64,000 nucleotides of DNA, from contig NZ_JACAEH010000014.1 in NCBI RefSeq assembly GCF_013388945.1, positions 1-64,000 of the forward strand, in the 5' to 3' direction. The stretch is from Nitrososphaera sp. Its GTDB lineage: Archaea; Thermoproteota; Nitrososphaeria; Nitrososphaerales; Nitrososphaeraceae. A program made the translations under genes and the position numbers. Of this stretch, positions 4,078 to 17,045 are shown piece after piece. Within the stretch, counting starts at the first letter, position 1. Every line of letters starts with the position of its first letter. The notes under the pieces were generated by a model that had not been told where the DNA came from, did not search any database, and saw nothing but the letters and a program-made list of their open reading frames with translations.

Positions 4078-5118
4078 TTGGCAAAGGGCAGGGCTGTTAC
4101 CATCGCTACGCTGGGCTCGCACTGCGCGCTCCAGGTGCTCAAGGGGGCAAAGGACGAGGGCTTCAAGACGCTTTTGATATGCGAGAAAAAACGCGCCGGG
4201 CTGTACGGCAGGTTCGGCTTTATAGACAGCATGATACAAGTCGACAGCTTCAACGAATTCCTGCGCGACGGCATCCAGGGCAAGCTAAAGAAAGCAAACG
4301 CGGTGCTGGTGCCGCACGGCACCCTGATATCGCAGATGTCAAGCGACCAGATAGAGAAGATAAGCACGCCCGTGTTTGGCAACAAGTGGATACTGCGCTG
4401 GGAGGCCGACAGGGCGCTCAAGCAGAGGCTGATGGAAGAGGCGGGGTTGAGGACGCCAAGGCCGGTCGCTTCAAAAGACGACATAAAGGGGCTTTGCATA
4501 GTGAAGCTGCACGGGGCGGCCGGAGGCAAGGGGTATTACCTTGCATGGGACAGGCAGAGCTTTGAAGAGGGCGCAAGCCGGCTCGTCTCGCAGAACATGA
4601 TAAAAGGCGAGCAGGACCTGTACATACAGGAATTCATCCGGGGAGTGCCGGCATACCTGCAGTACTTTTACTCGCCGGTAACAAAGGAGCTCGAGCTTTT
4701 AGGCGTCGACAGGCGCTACGAGTCTGACATCGACGGGATAGGCAGGATACCTGCAAGGCAGCAGCTTGGCGCAGGCTCCGAGCCGTCCTACACCGTCGTC
4801 GGCAACATCCCGCTTGTACTTCGCGAGTCGCTCCTTGACGAGGTCTATAAAATGGGCGAGGCGTTCTGCAGGGCTGCAGAGAGGCTCGTAAAACCGGGCA
4901 TGCCGGGCCCCTTCTGCCTCGAGGGCGTCTACGACAGCGAGGGCAGGTTCACCACTTTCGAGTTTTCCGCAAGGATAGTGGCAGGCACAAACCTCTACGT
5001 CGACGGCTCGCCTTATTCTGGCCTGCTCTACGACGAGCCCATGAGCATGGGCCGCAGGATCGCCCGCGAAGTAAAGATAGCCAAGAAAAAAGGCAGGCTC
5101 GGCGACGTTGTCACCTAG
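4078..5118 (+). CDS. purP: 5-formaminoimidazole-4-carboxamide ribonucleotide synthetase (PurP)
   Basis: 346 residues, the usual PurP length. The archaeal enzyme makes FAICAR from AICAR, formate and ATP, step 9 of purine synthesis. The N-terminus (AVTIATLGSHCALQVLKGAKDEG) and the ATP-grasp part (IVKLHGAAGGKGYYL; PFCLEGVYDSEGRFTTFEFSAR) match the family. The start is a TTG at 4078; no ATG lies close upstream. purN (25.5 kb) and purM (54.9 kb) in the same window belong to the same pathway. The 3' end overlaps the convergent 5111-6946 gene by 8 bp. Confidence 0.92.
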   Translation: MAKGRAVTIATLGSHCALQVLKGAKDEGFKTLLICEKKRAGLYGRFGFIDSMIQVDSFNEFLRDGIQGKLKKANAVLVPHGTLISQMSSDQIEKISTPVFGNKWILRWEADRALKQRLMEEAGLRTPRPVASKDDIKGLCIVKLHGAAGGKGYYLAWDRQSFEEGASRLVSQNMIKGEQDLYIQEFIRGVPAYLQYFYSPVTKELELLGVDRRYESDIDGIGRIPARQQLGAGSEPSYTVVGNIPLVLRESLLDEVYKMGEAFCRAAERLVKPGMPGPFCLEGVYDSEGRFTTFEFSARIVAGTNLYVDGSPYSGLLYDEPMSMGRRIAREVKIAKKKGRLGDVVT

Positions 5119-6946
5119 TCCGGACTGAACCTGCAAGTCTGGCGACTGCAAGCGCCGACGCGCCTGCGGCTGACACTACAAAAGCCGACGCGGCAAGCTG
5201 CAATGCCAGAAACGAGCCGGCCTGCAAGGAGACAGCAGTGGCCGCAAGGCAGGCCGCGACTGCCAAAAGCGCAGCGAGGAGCATTTTCGCGCTCACGCGT
5301 TTTTTACCTGCAATAGCAACTGCCGCTGCGGCAGGCGAGACATAGACTGCGCCGATGAGAGAGCTTGCCAGCGCGCCTGCAAGCACTGTCCCGGCCTCGC
5401 CCCCGCCCGATGCTGCAAATGCTTTCTCTGACGCAAGCAGTATGCCAAACAGCGGGTAGATTGCCGTCTTTACAGTCGCCTGCAGCCAGGGCTGGTCGCG
5501 CTCATAGTCTGCAACCTGCGGGCTGAACGAGTAATAGACTGCGTTGAACGCGTTCATGAAAGCCGAGCCGGAGGCAGACTGCATGACATAGTTGTCACGG
5601 AAGCCCCGCAAAAACTGCACCTGCGGCGTCAGCTCCGACCCGAAAGCCGCGGTGGCTATAAGGCATCCCGACGGCTGCTGCGGCTGCTCGGCTGGCGTGG
5701 TTCCCTGCAGAACGACGATGTCTATCTGGGCGCTCTCGTTTTCGCCGTTTATGTTCCGGGCGGCAAGCGTGTATGTTCCGGGCTCTGCAAAGGTGTACTG
5801 GTGCGAGAATATGCCCTGGTTTGACGACAGGCGCTGCCTGTATACTTCCCTGCCGTCCTTTTCAAGCACAAAGTCAAAGGAGGCGTTCCTGACAAGGTCG
5901 GTTGTTGCAGGGTCCTGTATGTTCATGGCAAACGTCGTGAGCGCGCCCGTCTTCATCACTTCAGGGCCCCAGGCTACCTGCCAGTCGTACTTTTCAGTCG
6001 TCGAGTACAGGTCCAGCGGGAATTTCGGGACTGACGCCGGAACCAGCTCAAAATCCATGCTCTGGCCTGTGGCCTCTTCTGCGATGCCGGCCAGCTTGGC
6101 GTTGTTAAGCACAAAGTGCACGACCCGGGAATCCGGGAAAGAGTAGTCGTCTATGAGCACCGCGTCTGGCGTCAGCGCGACGCCGTTTACCGTGCCAGAG
6201 TAGCCGTTTGACTGCAGCTTCTCAACGGCCTTTGGGAACTCGACTTCCATGTGCACGAGCTGCACCTGGCTCACGTACTGCGCGCTCCAGTCAAAGGGCA
6301 TGGAAAATGACAGCCTTCCGTCATCAGGGTCGTAGGCAAAGTCCTCCACGTCGGCATAGTAGGTCTTGACGGACATCTTTTGCGTGCCCTGCTGCGTGTC
6401 AACCTGGAATTCCTGGGTCTTTGAGATGCTGACATAGAGGTCAAACTTGCGGTCCTGCTCAAGCTGCAGGCCTGTGCTGCTCTTTTCAAGCGTTACTGCG
6501 ACGTGGTACAGGCCGCCGTCTGCAAGTATCCCGCTCCTCACCTCTGCAGGGCTGTCGCGGCTCACCTGCACCTGCTCGCCTGACGCCGGCTGGCCGTTTA
6601 CCTGCGCAGTTTCGATGTCGTCGGGCACAAGGTTTGCTATCACAAGCCCGTCAGGCGACGTGAACCTCTGGTCCAGAAGCACTTTGTTTTGCAGGTTCAC
6701 TACAACCCTAAAGTCCGTGCCGGCTATGGTCGAGTTGGTGGCAGGGTCGTGCGCCCTGACTGTGAACACGGGACGGCCTGCCTGCGCGCCTTCGATGTAA
6801 AACGGTGAGAGCGTGGTCTCTACAGATACCTGCCTGCCAGATATTGTCACAGGCGGCGACTCGTCAAACCCAAGCCCGTGCCCGTAGGCGCTTGGCAGAG
6901 AAATTGCCAGGAGAGCGATAACTGCGGTGACAATGTAGCGCCGCAC
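5111..6946 (-). CDS. Large exported protein with CFI-box-like segment and C-terminal membrane helices
   Basis: 611 residues. A signal peptide (about 1-22, RRYIVTAVIALLAISLPSAYG) precedes ~390 residues of beta-rich extracellular sequence with a closing Ig-like repeat (GIFSHQYTFAEPGTYTLAA). Near residue 420 comes GCLIATAAFGSELTPQVQFL, the signature of the CFI-box/CFI-CTERM domain, followed by a short helical domain and several hydrophobic helices to the C-terminus. First gene of the envelope block on this strand. Function unknown; the architecture suggests a surface protein anchored by its C-terminal end. Confidence 0.7.
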   Translation of the reverse strand: MRRYIVTAVIALLAISLPSAYGHGLGFDESPPVTISGRQVSVETTLSPFYIEGAQAGRPVFTVRAHDPATNSTIAGTDFRVVVNLQNKVLLDQRFTSPDGLVIANLVPDDIETAQVNGQPASGEQVQVSRDSPAEVRSGILADGGLYHVAVTLEKSSTGLQLEQDRKFDLYVSISKTQEFQVDTQQGTQKMSVKTYYADVEDFAYDPDDGRLSFSMPFDWSAQYVSQVQLVHMEVEFPKAVEKLQSNGYSGTVNGVALTPDAVLIDDYSFPDSRVVHFVLNNAKLAGIAEEATGQSMDFELVPASVPKFPLDLYSTTEKYDWQVAWGPEVMKTGALTTFAMNIQDPATTDLVRNASFDFVLEKDGREVYRQRLSSNQGIFSHQYTFAEPGTYTLAARNINGENESAQIDIVVLQGTTPAEQPQQPSGCLIATAAFGSELTPQVQFLRGFRDNYVMQSASGSAFMNAFNAVYYSFSPQVADYERDQPWLQATVKTAIYPLFGILLASEKAFAASGGGEAGTVLAGALASSLIGAVYVSPAAAAVAIAGKKRVSAKMLLAALLAVAACLAATAVSLQAGSFLALQLAASAFVVSAAGASALAVARLAGSVRTR

Positions 6947-7004: not shown

Positions 7005-7892
7005 CTACTGCCCTTCCATGTGGTCGTCCATCGCGCCTTCGTCCATGTGGTCGCCTGATTCCTCTTCGGATGTCGCGTGCCCCTCTATTTCAAGGCCGTA
7101 GGCTTCCCTCAGCTTCTCGTGGACGCCGATGTGCACCACCACTGTCACGTCCTCGACAGAGTGGCCCCCATACATGGCCTCTCTCAGCTCGACAAGGCCG
7201 GACTGGACGTCGTGCGCCACCTCAGTGCCCTCGTCTACCAGGTGTTCCCGGTAGAAGGTGTTCTTGGCAAGCGTCGCAAAGGCCTTTGCCGCGACGTAGG
7301 CGTCATGGTCGACAATGTCGCCACCTGCCACGTGGTCTCCCTCCATCGCGTGGTCCTCTTCCATCACCTGACCGTCGTCCATCATGTGCTCGCCAAGGCC
7401 GTGCGCCTGCTCGTACGAGGCAAGCGCGTTGTCTGCAAGCCCTGCCACTATGAGCGCCTGGACGTGCGGGTCAGAAACGTGCTCGCTGTCTATCCTGACG
7501 CTGACAGCCTCCGCAAGCAGGCTGCTTATTTCGCGGAACTGGCCGATAATTACGCTCCGCTCCTCGCCGCTTTCCACCATTGCTGCAAGGTCGTCAAGCG
7601 CGGCAGGAATATCTGCAGATATCCTCTCGTTCTGCTCGGCTATCTCGTTGAGCATCTCGTCGTCTATTATCATGTGCACGTGGTCGATGTGTGCAAGAGC
7701 CGCTTCAGGGTTGTCAAGGTTCTTGCCCACCAGCATCAGGTGAACCTTTGCAGCCATGACGTTTACAAGAAAACTGGCGCTCTCGTCCTCGGTGAAACTG
7801 TGCGCAAACGCCCTCTGGCCTGCAGCGGCATAGGTCATCCCTGCAAGGGCCATGCCTGCCATCACCAGCGCTGCGATTTTCGTTGGCTTCAT
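7005..7892 (-). CDS. Exported His/Met/Asp-rich protein, probable metal binder
   Basis: 295 residues with a signal peptide (about 1-30, ending GQRAFAHS). The body is helical and acidic. Two stretches are strikingly rich in His, Met, Asp and Glu: about 168-195 (GEHMMDDGQVMEEDHAMEGD) and the C-terminal tail (GHATSEEESGDHMDEGAMDD). Such patches bind Cu(I)/Cu(II) or similar ions in extracytoplasmic proteins. The neighbouring CopC/CopD fusion and blue-copper gene make copper the likely ion, but this is inference. No known family recognised. Confidence 0.6.
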   Translation of the reverse strand: MKPTKIAALVMAGMALAGMTYAAAGQRAFAHSFTEDESASFLVNVMAAKVHLMLVGKNLDNPEAALAHIDHVHMIIDDEMLNEIAEQNERISADIPAALDDLAAMVESGEERSVIIGQFREISSLLAEAVSVRIDSEHVSDPHVQALIVAGLADNALASYEQAHGLGEHMMDDGQVMEEDHAMEGDHVAGGDIVDHDAYVAAKAFATLAKNTFYREHLVDEGTEVAHDVQSGLVELREAMYGGHSVEDVTVVVHIGVHEKLREAYGLEIEGHATSEEESGDHMDEGAMDDHMEGQ

Positions 7893-9096: not shown

Positions 9097-9606
9097 CTAC
9101 AGCTCGTCGAGCATTTCAACGTAATTGTCGACGACCCTGTCTGCGTATGTCGCCCTGTATTTTGCAAGCACGTCTGCCACAAGGTCGCGGTTTGCAAGGC
9201 TGTACAGCTGGTACTCACCGTACCTGACGCGCACGATCCCGGCCTCCTTCAGCCGCTTCAGGTGCGACGACACGGTTGACGGCGCCTTGCCCGTGTGGTC
9301 AACAAGCTCGGCAAAGGTGCACGAGTCGTTTGCAAGTATGAACGAGATTATCTCGCGCACCGGCCCGTGTCTCACGAACCCGAGCACGTGCGACTCGCCT
9401 TCGGGAACGTTGAGCGGGTAGTAGCGCGTCGCGCCAGACTGCCTGTCCACCCGCACCATGCTCGACTTTTCAAGGGCCGACAGGTGGTAGGTGAGCACGC
9501 CGTTTGCAAGTCCCGTCAGCCGCAAGAGCTCCCGGTAGCGTATGCCCGGCTCCTTTGCGATGTACGCAAGGAGCAGGTCAGGCGTGTCCAGCTGCGAGAC
9601 TTCCAT
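9097..9606 (-). CDS. Transcriptional regulator with two tandem winged-helix domains
   Basis: 169 residues from ATG 9606, which overlaps the stop of the membrane gene upstream. Two ArsR/MarR-like winged helices follow each other: residues ~8-62 (PGIRYRELLRLTGLANGVLTYHL) and ~80-150 (CTFAELVDHTGKAPSTVSSH, then VRYGEYQLYSLAN as the wing). No metal-site cysteines are present. It sits inside the copper/envelope block and is the most likely reader of the 10-3-10 palindromes at 8484 and 11546; that link is inferred from position only. Confidence 0.78.
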   Translation of the reverse strand: MEVSQLDTPDLLLAYIAKEPGIRYRELLRLTGLANGVLTYHLSALEKSSMVRVDRQSGATRYYPLNVPEGESHVLGFVRHGPVREIISFILANDSCTFAELVDHTGKAPSTVSSHLKRLKEAGIVRVRYGEYQLYSLANRDLVADVLAKYRATYADRVVDNYVEMLDEL

Positions 9607-10007
9607 CACTTGTTCACCTTGAGCACTCCAAGCCCGAACATCATGAGCATGACAAGCGTGATGATGTGCGACGCCTCGATGTTGATGGCAGGGACATAGA
9701 ATGGAAGCGGTATCGCCGCTGCCTGAAGCAGGTAGAACAGCTCCGCCACGCCGAGAGCGATGAAGCCGATGGTCATAAAAAGCGTCCTTGCGCCGCCGGC
9801 CCTGCTGTACGCCGTCAGCGAGACTATGCTCAGAAACGCGGCGATGGCAACGGCTGCAATGTGGAGAATGATATGGTAGACCATCGACGGGTGGGTGACG
9901 TGCGGCAGGGTCAAGGGTGCTATTATCCCGACCACGACTGCGGCAACTAGGCCGAAAAGCAGCGGCTTGCTAGCTGTTTGCTGGGCAGGCCTGGTACCCG
10001 TCTGCAT
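9606..10007 (-). CDS. Four-helix membrane protein
   Basis: 133 residues from ATG 10007; a TTG two codons upstream is possible. Four hydrophobic helices (PLLFGLVAAVVVGIIAPLTL; YHIILHIAAVAIAAFLSIVS; TLFMTIGFIALGVAELFYLL; IITLVMLMMFGLGVLKV) carry two His and a Glu in or near the membrane. The coding end overlaps the regulator gene. A TATA-like TTTATTAG (minus strand) lies about 28 nt upstream. Unknown function, probably linked to the metal/envelope operon. Confidence 0.65.
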   Translation of the reverse strand: MQTGTRPAQQTASKPLLFGLVAAVVVGIIAPLTLPHVTHPSMVYHIILHIAAVAIAAFLSIVSLTAYSRAGGARTLFMTIGFIALGVAELFYLLQAAAIPLPFYVPAINIEASHIITLVMLMMFGLGVLKVNK

Positions 10008-10082
10008 CCACAAGTAACTTGGTAGTTTTCAACTAATAAACCGAATGGTACAAAGCCAGAACTAGAAAAAAGTGAATGAGGG

Positions 10083-11589: not shown

Positions 11590-14475
11590 CTAGCCCAGCT
11601 TTGACGCTTCGCGCACGTTGCGCCTAAGGTCGGTAGCGCTTTTTGCATACAACAACCCCGCAATGATGATGCCCGCGGCGATGCCAGGGCCGGCATAGTC
11701 GGCAAGTGGCAGGTTCATCTCGGCTTGCTGCTCCGGCTCCGGCTCCTCTGGACCGGGCTGCTGCGTCGGCGGCTTGGCAGTCACCACTATCTTGCCAATC
11801 TTGGCCCCTTGCTGCTCGGCTATCCAGATGTTGCCCAAGTCGTCAGAAAGGATGTACTGCACAAACGAGCCGGGCGTAGGTATCTTGACCTCCGTGCCCT
11901 GGCCGGTCCGCGGGTCGAGCACGGCTATCCTGTCTATCTCGTGCTGGGCGTACCAGAGGTTGCCGAACCTGTCCTTTGCCATTCCAAACGGCAGCCCGCC
12001 GTCGTTGACCGAAGGATACTCCCTGAAAGTCTCAAAGAGCGGGTTGAACGCGGTCACGGTGTGGCCCGTGTGCTCTGAAATGAAAAGCGTGTTGCTGTCA
12101 GGGTCCGGGAAGACGACTGTCGGCTCGTCCAGCTTGTTGCTACCCGGCGGCGCGTACTCTGTGACTGCGCCGGTCTTGGTGTCTATCATCGCTATCCTGT
12201 CACTGCCAGACTCTGCGACCCACACGTTGCCGTTTCTGTCAAGCGAGACTGCAACCGGTATCGAGCCGGCCGTCGGCAGGTCAACGTAGGTAAACTGCTC
12301 TGTCGAAGGGTCGAACCTGAATACCCTGTTCAGCTGCACGACAGGCATCCAGAGATTCCCGTCTCCGTCCATGACAAGCCCCGAGACTATGCCCTTTTGC
12401 GGAAGCTGGAAGTTCTTGTTGGCCCTTGTGTCCGGGTCGTACACGCCAAGTATCCCCGTCGGGTCGATGTACCACAGCATGCCGTTTCCGTCAAGCGCCA
12501 TCTGCGTGATGATTGCCGCGCCCTGCACTTCATGCAGCGTGTAATTTCCGGTCGCCATGTCCAGCTGCCAGATCTTGCCCGTCGTGCTTCCCTGGACAGG
12601 CAGCGAGTCTCCAACCCATATCGAGTTGCGCTCCCCGTCAAGCACAGGGAACAGCGGCAGGCTGCGCGACGCCGGTATCCTGTACTCTGTGAGCTCAAAT
12701 GCAAGGTCCGAGACCGCCGGTCCCACGTCTAGGTCGATGCTTGCGACAATGTTTGTCGACTCGGGCCTCACGCCTTCCACCACCACGCTCCAGGTGCCGG
12801 CGATGCCAAACGCGGCCTCTGCGGTGTAGACGCCCTCTGACTTTTTGGCAGTCTCTACTGTTATAGGCCCTATGCCCCTTTCGACGTTTGTCATCTTTAC
12901 CGACGCAGACTCGATGCCTGATGCCGGCTTGCCGTCCAGGTCAAAGAACGACAGCGTGAACGTGTTCTGGCCCACCGCGTAGGGCTTGACTGCAAGGTCT
13001 ATCCTGCCGGCAGACGTTATCAGGGTCTGCACGTAGCCGCGGTCCGCAGGCGCCTGCGCAAACGCACTCTGCGTGTCGTCCTTGGCGTACTGCGGGAACT
13101 CGCCTTCGGGCAGCGCGCCGTTTGCCATGAGAGAGACCATAAGCAGGAGCGCTATCCCGGCCTCGGCCTCGGCCTTGAGCGTCCTGCCGTACCTGCCCAC
13201 GCCGGTGTGCTGTATTGACTGGCCGCCGGCCATAGCCGCCACTGCCTTTTTCTGGACGACTGCCTGCGAGTAGGCGCCCATGCCGACCATCACGCCTGCA
13301 AGCGCCAGCTTGATAATCAGCACCCTGCCGTAGGTGGACGCAAGGGTGAGCGACAGGTTGTCCTCTATCATGAAAAGCAGGAGCGGGCCGGTGATTACAG
13401 ACAGTCCCAGGATTGTCACGACGACTGTCGAAAAGCGCGGGATGAGTATTGATATGGCTGCAGGCCTTGCCCTCTCGTCTGACAGCGCAAGCAGGCGCGG
13501 GACTACAACGAATCCCATGAGCACCACCCCGCCTATCCAGATGCTTGCAGCCGCGTTGTGGAAAAAGTCAAGCAGGATTGCGGCTGTCTGCCCTGTTGCC
13601 GCGCCGTGCGAGATGAGGCTGGACGTGACGAGCACCGCAAGTCCCATGACGAGGATTGCAATCATCTCTGCCCGCGACGGGATTGCGCCTTCGCGCGCCA
13701 TCTTGCGCTGCACAAAGACTGCGATTATCATGAGAATCGACGACTCTATCATGCGCGTCGTCCAGATCGTGCCGAACTTTGTCGCTATGGCGTCGCCGAT
13801 GCTTGCGTTTATCTCGTACGCCTGCACCGATATCATCGCCGCGTTCGATGCAAGGACAAGCCCGGTGCCGATGATCACGAGCCCAAGCATCTTGCGGTCT
13901 ATTTCATGGCGCCTTGCCGCTACTGCGTTTGCAAGCCAAGGCACCTTTTCAAGCGGCTTCCACAGCCAGAGCGTGCCAAACGCAGCGCCGACCACTATAA
14001 TCTGCCCTACCATGCCGGGGAACCTCGACGCGGACTCTTCCGGCGACAGCACGTCTGATTGCGGCGCAGAAGGACTGTCTGTTTCGACGGGTGCAACACC
14101 GATGCCAAACGTGAAGGCGTTGTCAACCACGTGGCCGTCGACTGCAGAGAGCACACGCGTCGTGACTGTGTAGACGCCCTCCGGAAGGTTTGGCTGGAGC
14201 GAGACGCGAAGCGAGGCCGTGTCGCCGTCGGCATAGCCGGGATCGTTCCTGTCGACCCTCGAGCCGTCCGGACCGAGCACCGCTATCTTGCTGTAGTCTA
14301 TCTCTATCGCCTCGCTGAAATGCACCGTCACTTCCGGAGGAGTGGACGAGACACTTGCAAAAGGCCGCGGGTCTGAACCGGTCAGGATGGGATGTGCAGA
14401 CGCCTGCTGCACGTTTACAATCAAAAGCGCCGCCACTGCTACCATTACTGGGACGTACAGCAGCCGGCGGCCCAT
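11590..14475 (-). CDS. CopC-CopD fusion with extracellular beta-propeller (copper handling)
   Basis: 961 residues from the ATG at 14475. A signal peptide ends QQASA, leaving His28 as the first residue of a CopC domain (HPILTGSDPRPFASVSSTPP; second conserved His in DGHVVDNAFTFGIG), as in proteins binding Cu(II) through the N-terminal His. A CopD-like multi-helix region (~165-440) follows. About 300 residues then look like a Vgb/SMP-30-type beta-propeller with repeated DGNLWMPV, NGNVWVAESGSDRIAMID and LGNIWIAEQQGAKIG blades. A Pro/Glu-rich linker and one helix close the protein. CopC and CopD act in copper uptake or tolerance; the propeller is an unusual addition. Divergent from the 14580 gene. 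Confidence 0.85.
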   Translation of the reverse strand: MGRRLLYVPVMVAVAALLIVNVQQASAHPILTGSDPRPFASVSSTPPEVTVHFSEAIEIDYSKIAVLGPDGSRVDRNDPGYADGDTASLRVSLQPNLPEGVYTVTTRVLSAVDGHVVDNAFTFGIGVAPVETDSPSAPQSDVLSPEESASRFPGMVGQIIVVGAAFGTLWLWKPLEKVPWLANAVAARRHEIDRKMLGLVIIGTGLVLASNAAMISVQAYEINASIGDAIATKFGTIWTTRMIESSILMIIAVFVQRKMAREGAIPSRAEMIAILVMGLAVLVTSSLISHGAATGQTAAILLDFFHNAAASIWIGGVVLMGFVVVPRLLALSDERARPAAISILIPRFSTVVVTILGLSVITGPLLLFMIEDNLSLTLASTYGRVLIIKLALAGVMVGMGAYSQAVVQKKAVAAMAGGQSIQHTGVGRYGRTLKAEAEAGIALLLMVSLMANGALPEGEFPQYAKDDTQSAFAQAPADRGYVQTLITSAGRIDLAVKPYAVGQNTFTLSFFDLDGKPASGIESASVKMTNVERGIGPITVETAKKSEGVYTAEAAFGIAGTWSVVVEGVRPESTNIVASIDLDVGPAVSDLAFELTEYRIPASRSLPLFPVLDGERNSIWVGDSLPVQGSTTGKIWQLDMATGNYTLHEVQGAAIITQMALDGNGMLWYIDPTGILGVYDPDTRANKNFQLPQKGIVSGLVMDGDGNLWMPVVQLNRVFRFDPSTEQFTYVDLPTAGSIPVAVSLDRNGNVWVAESGSDRIAMIDTKTGAVTEYAPPGSNKLDEPTVVFPDPDSNTLFISEHTGHTVTAFNPLFETFREYPSVNDGGLPFGMAKDRFGNLWYAQHEIDRIAVLDPRTGQGTEVKIPTPGSFVQYILSDDLGNIWIAEQQGAKIGKIVVTAKPPTQQPGPEEPEPEQQAEMNLPLADYAGPGIAAGIIIAGLLYAKSATDLRRNVREASKLG

Positions 14476-14579
14476 GGAAGAAATTACGCGCCGGCGTATA
14501 TTTGACTCTTGCTTGTTTTGTGGTACAAACCCCGAACCAGACTCAAAGATTATAAGCATTGCAAATCAAGTTTTTACAG

Positions 14580-15254
14580 ATGAAAAAGGCAGCCCTTGCG
14601 CTTGCACTCGCACTGCCGCTTTTGCTTTTTGCCTTCAAGCCCGCATTTGCGCACAACGAGGCGGAGGTGGGCGACATCAGGATTGTCGGAGGCTGGGGAA
14701 TAGAGCCGCCGCTCATAGGCCAGCTCAACACGATAGTGATTCAGGTCACGAGCATTTCGACCGGCGACCCTGTCACGAACGCGTTTGCAAATGCAAACGT
14801 GGTCGTGAAGAAGGGAGGCGTGCAGAAAGCGCTGGAACTTACTCCGGCAGAGGAGGCCGGCTGGTACGAGGCAGAGATCATCCCGACGCAGCTCGGGCAG
14901 TATGCCATAGCGTTTTCAGGCCGCATAGGCACGCAGCAGGTGAACACCCAGATAGAGCTTGAAGACGTCGATGACACAAAGAGGCTGAACTTCCCAGAGG
15001 GCGGAGACTCGAACCAGGGCATCCCGGAAGACTTTGTTGACCAGATGCGCCAGGTCATAACCGGCCTGACCGTCCAGGTCGAAAACGCCAACACCTCGGC
15101 GCAGAATGCAAGCGACGCGGCTGCAAGCGCGGCCCAGTCTGCAGGCGAAACAAGGTCGGCGGCCGACAGGGCGTACCTGGTCGGCCTGGTTGGCATAGGC
15201 GTCGGCGTGGCAGGAATCGCCATTGCCGCAGTAGCGCTTTCGAAAAAAGCCTAG
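14580..15254 (+). CDS. Exported Ig-like protein with coiled coil and C-terminal anchor
   Basis: 224 residues from ATG 14580; TATA-like ATTATAAG lies about 27 nt upstream, favouring this over the in-frame TTG at 14559. Signal peptide (ALALALPLLLFAFKPAFAHN), then a beta-sandwich related to CopC/YtkA-like domains (GWYEAEIIPTQLGQYAIAF), then an Ala/Ser-rich helical stretch (~165-195, QNASDAAASAAQSAGETRSA) and one C-terminal helix ending LSKKA. It shares a divergent promoter with the CopC-CopD fusion, so a partner role in copper handling is plausible. Confidence 0.7.
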   Translation: MKKAALALALALPLLLFAFKPAFAHNEAEVGDIRIVGGWGIEPPLIGQLNTIVIQVTSISTGDPVTNAFANANVVVKKGGVQKALELTPAEEAGWYEAEIIPTQLGQYAIAFSGRIGTQQVNTQIELEDVDDTKRLNFPEGGDSNQGIPEDFVDQMRQVITGLTVQVENANTSAQNASDAAASAAQSAGETRSAADRAYLVGLVGIGVGVAGIAIAAVALSKKA

Positions 15255-16250: not shown

Positions 16251-17045
16251 TTAGAACCTTCCGAGGCCGAACAGGTTACCCTTGAAGCGGGCAACACCTA
16301 TGACAGCCACGAGCGAGACTGCAAGCACCAGGGCGGCTATCACGCCAAACTCCGGAACCACGGTTGCGCCCGTTATCTCCACCGATCCGCTGTCTGGGAC
16401 AGTGACGCTGATAGTCGTCGACTGGTCGTCTTCGTTCACCACTTCAGCCGCCGCTCCGTCCACCATCAAGCTGCCGCTTACCATGCTCTTTGGCAAGGTT
16501 ACTTCCGCAGCGCCCGGACCGTCGAATGTCAGGGTCACCGATTCGCCTGCTGCTATCTCTGCAGCTGTTATCGAGTTGTCAGCAGACGTTGAAGTCACCT
16601 CGTAGCTGTTGCCGCCAAGCTCTGCTGTGGCAGTGCTTGTTGTTGGCTCGTCGCCTCCGCCACCAGCGCCCACTACTACTGTGCCAACCATTGCTGGGTG
16701 CAAGCTGCAGTAGTATTCATATTCGCCTTCCTCAGTAGCAGTCCATTCCTGTGTCTTGTTCGGACCTATAATCTCGTCACCGTCTCCACCGAAGAGTCCA
16801 GAGGGCCCGTCATCGAGGTTGCCTGAAACCACTGTGTGGAAGGTACTGTCCTTGTTTGTCCAGACTATGGTGTCGCCCACGTTAGCATTTACAGGGTTGG
16901 GCGAAAACGCATCGGTTGTCTTGTTAGTCGCTCCGGGAACTATGTCCACGTTGATTGTTGCTGCAAAAGCCGCCGGCGCAGGCAGCGAAATAACCGCTGC
17001 CAGAACAGCCGCCAGGCCCACAGCAAGAGCCATGCTCGACTTCAT
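16251..17045 (-). CDS. Plastocyanin-like blue-copper protein with PEFG-CTERM anchor
   Basis: 264 residues. After the signal peptide (to ~28) comes a cupredoxin domain with ligands visible as His70 (STFHTVV), Cys113, His116 and Met119 (YYCSLHPAMVG; the C-x2-H-x2-M spacing of pseudoazurin and amicyanin). A second beta domain (~130-225) precedes the canonical VVPEFGVIAALVLAVSLVAV sorting helix. Such proteins are thought to carry electrons outside the membrane in ammonia-oxidising archaea, which use copper instead of haem c. A TATA-like TTTAATG lies ~25 nt upstream; divergent from the 17127 gene. Confidence 0.88.
   Translation of the reverse strand: MKSSMALAVGLAAVLAAVISLPAPAAFAATINVDIVPGATNKTTDAFSPNPVNANVGDTIVWTNKDSTFHTVVSGNLDDGPSGLFGGDGDEIIGPNKTQEWTATEEGEYEYYCSLHPAMVGTVVVGAGGGGDEPTTSTATAELGGNSYEVTSTSADNSITAAEIAAGESVTLTFDGPGAAEVTLPKSMVSGSLMVDGAAAEVVNEDDQSTTISVTVPDSGSVEITGATVVPEFGVIAALVLAVSLVAVIGVARFKGNLFGLGRF

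Follow-up and report, generated by a model that had tools for sequence, protein, structure and literature searches.

A CopC–CopD–YtkA–propeller membrane protein of ammonia-oxidising archaea and its proposed role in copper acquisition

A four-module membrane protein and its neighbours

The window considered here, a 64,000-nucleotide stretch of Nitrososphaera sp. DNA, contains the gene for a membrane protein (designated P0001) in which CopC, CopD, YtkA and β-propeller modules are joined in a single chain (Table 1). The open reading frame (ORF) runs from an ATG at 14475 to a stop at 11590 and is free of internal stops. A second in-frame ATG lies upstream, at 14559, but 14475 appears to be the better-fitting start, agreeing with both the promoter motif and the signal peptide; the cleavage site of the latter was placed by inspection and with a heuristic. 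The initial annotation of this locus had both the coordinates and the order CopC, CopD, propeller right, as the ORF and the Pfam matches confirm, but it described the protein as tripartite. There are four modules and a ninth transmembrane (TM) helix, the overlooked module being the YtkA/Ig-like domain between CopD and the propeller, which is seen both as a Pfam YtkA match and as strands in the structural model.

Table 1 Features of the P0001 locus (positions in the window)
Feature	Position	Strand	Residues	Details and basis
CopC-CopD-YtkA-propeller-TM protein (P0001)	11590..14475	-		961 aa; ORF, Pfam, AlphaFold2
Signal peptide	14395..14475	-	1-27	ending ASA/H; sequence
CopC domain	14098..14394	-	28-126	Pfam CopC E 1e-17; PDB YcnJ CopC 9c14
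CopD membrane domain, 8 TM helices	13111..14043	-	145-455	Pfam, NCBIfam, AlphaFold2
YtkA/Ig-like extracellular domain (predicted)	12721..13035	-	481-585	Pfam YtkA; strands in model
7-bladed Vgb-type β-propeller	11776..12705	-	591-900	Pfam Vgb_lyase; Foldseek; conservation
Ninth TM helix and positively charged, presumably cytoplasmic tail	11593..11706	-	924-961	
Match to N. viennensis copper-limitation motif	14519..14536	-		2 mismatches; 44-61 nt upstream of P0001 ATG
Divergent partner	14559..15254	+		signal peptide, CrdA/YtkA-like β-sandwich, mature N-terminal His, helical stalk
Plastocyanin-like PEFG-CTERM cupredoxin	16251..17045	-		recurring neighbour
Small membrane protein	9606..10013	-		copper-limitation motif (1 mismatch) upstream at 10044-10061
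Tandem winged-helix, ArsR-like regulator	9097..9609	-		recurring neighbour
His-rich secreted protein	7005..7892	-		recurring neighbour

Judged against the curated Pfam cut-offs, the matches to CopC (residues 28–124, 65 bits, cut-off 23.3), CopD (residues 345–449, 39 bits, cut-off 32.1) and Vgb_lyase (from residue 594, 99 bits, cut-off 50, with an SGL match too) are joined by one to YtkA (residues 492–566) that lies barely above its threshold (26.8 bits, cut-off 25.9). NCBIfam copper_CopD spans residues 150–451, under its equivalog cut-off. The AlphaFold2 model of P0001, based on 77 sequences (mean pLDDT 87.2, with a pTM of 0.60 that leaves the placement of the domains unfixed), comprises a CopC sandwich, eight TM helices, an Ig-like domain (481–584), the propeller (591–900) and a C-terminal helix (924–960), in keeping with the earlier suggestion that a propeller and C-terminal helix follow CopD. 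The best Foldseek matches of the propeller are the Vgb structures 2qc5 and 2z2n (target TM 0.88–0.90). From the alternating charge of the loops and the positive-inside rule, CopC, YtkA and the propeller are predicted to be extracellular and the tail beyond TM9 to lie inside; an external propeller had been proposed from the outset, and the eight TM helices agree with this.

Production of the propeller as a separate protein from an internal start was rejected as the main reading. A single uninterrupted ORF with all modules is found in 76 of the 80 named loci of ammonia-oxidising archaea (AOA), the other four being cut by contig ends. There is no ATG among codons 450–528 of P0001, and an internal GTG at codon 566, within the YtkA domain, has one GGAG ahead of it, which does not amount to real evidence for initiation there. 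A separate internal product is also disfavoured because it would be missing the signal peptide.

Among the neighbours, the divergent partner gene (14559–15254) is the best conserved, being present in 68 of 73 AOA loci and immediately divergent in 52. The partner, with an ATG start probably at 14580, is modelled as a β-sandwich atop a long helical stalk that terminates in a membrane helix; the best structural match of the sandwich is Helicobacter pylori CrdA (target TM 0.68), and the mature N-terminal histidine is kept in 60 of 61 partners. Attention had previously been drawn to a blue-copper protein nearby. A copper-related gene of this kind is indeed present (16251–17045), and of 38 AOA loci examined, 18 encode a plastocyanin-like protein close to the P0001 homologue, but it is the divergent partner that is the better conserved. 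A published synteny (PMC7785015) of a small membrane gene with motif, an ArsR-like gene and copC/D is repeated in the window, the small membrane gene probably being, by position, the equivalent of NVIE_014290. In Nitrosotalea-type loci, a homologue of the His-rich secreted protein is encoded between the two core genes.

Between 5111 and 17045, several secreted proteins apparently start with histidine after signal-peptide cleavage, as in Cu(II)-binding proteins like CopC. These are P0001 and the proteins encoded at 14559, 7950 and 10083 and, by eye, also those at 7005 and 5111. A mature N-terminal histidine follows four of eight strict AxA signal peptides in the cluster against 2 of 32 in stretches sampled from the genome, a suggestive figure only, given that the heuristic missed 7005–7892 and 5111–6946 and that the count was made after the pattern had been seen.

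The copper-limitation motif published for N. viennensis (PMC7785015), TTCSGSMTTTGWACYANT, is expected 35–70 nt upstream of a start codon and is matched at −61 to −44 of P0001 with two mismatches. In the source genome the motif occurs six times at ≤2 mismatches versus three for a reversed control, so this single match is weak evidence; conservation across loci is stronger. Within the genus, 10 of 13 members carry the motif upstream at ≤3 mismatches and nine at ≤2. At ≤2 mismatches it is found in 12 of 36 upstream regions versus 0.025 expected from base-shuffled sequence, although the regions are related to one another, one of the genomes probably being that of N. viennensis, and do not count as independent.

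Distribution and conserved residues

Matches to P0001 were found in 103 of 121 relatives, many genera from several families having a single ORF of full length, and the 80 loci from a scan of GTDB genome contigs are titled Nitrososphaera, Nitrosotalea, Nitrosopumilus, Nitrosotenuis, Nitrosarchaeum, Marine Group I and others, or undetermined Thaumarchaeota. The domain search across Nitrososphaeria that had been proposed as a check thus reveals a widespread CopC–CopD–propeller chain, clearly not one absent from close relatives. A private or chimeric fusion can be rejected, as the same ORF is found in many relatives. Among 31 orthologues, CopC, CopD and Vgb_lyase are each detected in all 31 and YtkA in 17 (E ≤ 0.01).

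The P0001 profile has matches in 280 of 400 genomes from the class, and archaeal AmoA in 249. When amoA-bearing genomes at least 95% complete were counted by hand from the profile and AmoA tables, a strong profile match (E below 1e-100), which is not proof of full length although almost all of those listed cover the whole model, was present in 118 of 123 outside one genus (g2) and one of nine within it. In g2 genomes, CopD is a protein of its own, CopC is joined to YtkA in a separate secreted protein, and there is no propeller. This genus is probably Nitrosocosmicus, as the published copC–copD split in N. franklandianus would suggest (PMC12448741); Nitrosocosmicus-like genomes mostly lack the fusion and the propeller. 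In such genomes, a secreted 206-aa protein with SYA/H (L140:7492-8112) is encoded between the split CopC–YtkA and CopD genes. An amoA-lacking genome (G082) encodes a distant full-length homologue with 27–29% identity.

Several variants of the architecture were also seen. In two loci (L035:6107-8131 and L036:5929-7968), a paralogue with the order CopC–CopD–YtkA-like–TM and no propeller adjoins the propeller form; in the propeller's place, before the last TM helix, it has a Met-rich linker, possibly a Cu(I) site. That a propeller-less paralogue has the same scaffold, with the linker at that place, supports the view that the propeller was inserted into a scaffold of the YcnJ type. Stand-alone propellers, apparently N-terminally anchored and 33–38% identical to the fused one, are found in some same-family genomes, in genera g8 and g6 (L160:1058-2410, L161:1834-3033, L162:1287-2414, L163:1254-2366). 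Longer forms of 1147–1294 aa contain sequence beyond P0001 (L040:6415-10218, L043:4133-8017, L145:1135-4578). The source genome also has a second, lone CopD above the Pfam cut-off (L001:1501-1833, equivalent to G000:C1:8367-8699).

Nine residues never vary in 77 AOA proteins: H28, D113, H115, H290, D303, H306, H802, H845 and Q873. In CopC, the candidate Cu(II) ligands are H28 (the mature N-terminus), D113 and H115, and the domain has the hallmarks of the C0-1 family, with a Pfam match over the cut-off, one candidate Cu(II) site and no Met-rich Cu(I) region; no methionine is conserved within residues 28–126 of the 77-protein alignment. H290, D303 and H306 of CopD sit near the outer ends of TM4 and TM5. 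In the propeller, E887 (72 of 77) and E801 (67 of 77) are near-invariant. The propeller is conserved to much the same degree as the other domains, identity to P0001 being 0.39 for the propeller, 0.35–0.46 for the other domains and 0.13 for the linker before TM9. The CopCD and propeller trees correlate closely (Mantel r 0.96, maximum of 500 permutations 0.12), as do CopCD, YtkA and propeller trees in all pairwise comparisons (r 0.94–0.96, permutation maxima 0.09–0.12), and the three modules have therefore been inherited together.

Possible roles of the protein and its propeller

Archaeal ammonia oxidation is heavily dependent on copper, yet copper uptake and distribution in AOA are not settled. 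On balance, we favour the view that P0001 is a copper-acquisition protein of AOA built on the YcnJ plan, in which the propeller most likely offers a docking or hand-over surface and is not a lyase. The invariant candidate ligands, co-inheritance of the modules, promoter motif, conserved partner and architecture all count towards acquisition. Work on relatives (PMC13344008, PMC12362106, PMC7785015) describes copper import by YcnJ and a response of N. viennensis copC/D to copper limitation. We infer copper binding and the direction of transport in P0001 by analogy with the work on YcnJ, and the whole of the propeller's role from its conservation.

According to this proposal, CopC at the cell surface would capture Cu(II) through the amino-terminal His28, Asp113 and His115 and hand it to a site formed by His290, Asp303 and His306 at the outer opening of CopD. 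CopD would then move the copper into or across the membrane. YtkA and the propeller would form an outward platform, anchored in the membrane by TM8 on one side and TM9 on the other, from which the propeller might dock with, or hand copper over to, membrane-anchored or exported copper proteins, first among them the divergent CrdA/YtkA-like partner with its N-terminal histidine. Such docking or copper hand-over by the propeller is plausible. Two observations count against this reading, namely that Nitrosocosmicus-like genomes are mostly without a propeller and that the short paralogue lacks one. Both copC/D genes of N. viennensis are upregulated under copper limitation (PMC7785015). In N. maritimus, copC/D is reportedly downregulated under the same stress (PMC7785015), which counts against acquisition and leaves room for a different role, such as supplying complex IV with copper.

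A tentative alternative along these lines, to which we give a minority share of belief, is that P0001 is a copper-loading assembly factor and not an importer, with CopC, YtkA and the propeller supplying complex IV or ammonia monooxygenase from outside and CopD serving as a membrane base. The protein tracks amoA-bearing genomes, AOA copC/D and complex IV go up or down together in each of the two species studied (PMC7785015) and, in YcnJ, the YtkA domain contributes alongside CtaK to Cta (CuA) assembly (PMC13344008). Set against this, YcnJ without YtkA still supports Qox (PMC13344008), and the invariant CopD histidine and aspartate residues near the outer face would suit uptake. Importer and assembly-factor roles are not mutually exclusive.

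It is similarly possible, though we would not count it as likely, that the propeller contains a second site for copper or another metal, in which H802 and H845 (on adjacent blades), E801/E887 and Q873 would bind the metal inside the central channel, copper being relayed among CopC, CopD and partner proteins; such a site would be a refinement of the copper-acquisition reading, not a substitute for it. The invariance of H802, H845 and Q873 extends to the distant amoA-lacking homologue, and all three are kept in stand-alone propellers close to the fused one, whereas a typical Vgb-like protein from the genus retains neither H802 nor H845. However, Q873 is lost in the G082 stand-alone propeller, and the conserved residues may merely bind peptide or hold the fold. 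Taken with the loss of the Vgb catalytic residues, the conserved His, Glu and Gln residues are compatible with either docking or metal relay. More speculatively still, a propeller with a His/Glu metal pocket could dock the N-terminal-His partner and cupredoxins alike, acting since the AOA ancestor as a surface copper-distribution hub for the copper enzymes with which these archaea oxidise ammonia.

Extracellular propellers are often protein-contact modules, and the propeller-less scaffold of some AOA would fit with a passive structural or surface-layer contact module that handles no copper. This we consider unlikely, given that polar residues in the propeller are invariant and that, one genus aside, almost every complete amoA-bearing genome retains the fusion. 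An enzymatic role, such as that of a streptogramin-type lyase, is highly improbable despite the Pfam Vgb_lyase match, the Vgb fold and the reading of a Vgb gene in Thaumarchaeota MAGs as streptogramin resistance (PMC10064710): the catalytic His270 of Vgb, known from the H270A entry 2z2p, corresponds to T786 in the alignment but to Q873 when blades are matched by order, and His228 likewise to V741 or F830, in a register that is partly our own reading, whilst the NCBIfam VgbB and VgbA scores are 66.7 and 49.9 bits against a cut-off of 600. As the catalytic residues are not conserved, P0001 was rejected as a Vgb enzyme. The fused propeller (11776–12705) thus calls for caution, in that Vgb annotations in AOA need not mean streptogramin resistance.

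Relation to known copper systems

CopC/D fusions across the phylum have already been published (PMC7785015), acquisition of CopC/CopD has been placed at the AOA ancestor (PMC7554672) and a Nitrosopumilus protein has been described as CopC-like at its N-terminal side (PMC6593220). A description of the AOA CopC/D propeller was not found in the literature searched, which was largely without subscription papers. The copper-acquisition reading adds a concrete, testable part to this picture: a near-universal AOA protein with invariant candidate copper ligands, a propeller, a divergent partner and a regulatory motif.

NVIE_014300/014310 of N. viennensis very probably include the P0001 orthologue. In a genome that is probably that of N. 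viennensis, a 988-aa propeller form with two upstream motif copies lies beside a 679-aa form, matching the published account of copC/D_b and copC/D_a. The publication describes the CopC and CopD domains alone (PMC7785015), and the words propeller, virginiamycin and streptogramin are absent from it.

The propeller shares the seven-bladed fold of Vgb (2z2n, 2qc5) over residues 591–900 but lacks the catalytic histidine and belongs to a membrane copper protein. The partner resembles H. pylori CrdA/YtkA-like copper proteins in its β-sandwich, YtkA also being the third domain of P0001, and differs from them in having a long helical stalk, a membrane helix and a conserved mature N-terminal histidine.

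With the YtkA/Ig-like domain placed between CopD and the propeller, the closest known architecture is that of Bacillus subtilis YcnJ, here with an inserted propeller. The two proteins have in common the domain order CopC–CopD–YtkA in one chain, an extracellular CopC with an N-terminal histidine, conserved CopD histidine and a copper-protein partner gene alongside (YcnI in B. subtilis). YcnJ needs its CopC and CopD histidines for growth under copper limitation (PMC13344008), the required CopD residue being H295 where P0001 has two invariant histidines, H290 and H306, and the CopC domain of YcnJ exchanges Cu(II) with YcnI (PMC12362106). P0001 differs in the external seven-bladed propeller and ninth TM helix that follow YtkA, and in its partner, which is CrdA/YtkA-like where YcnI is a DUF1775 protein.
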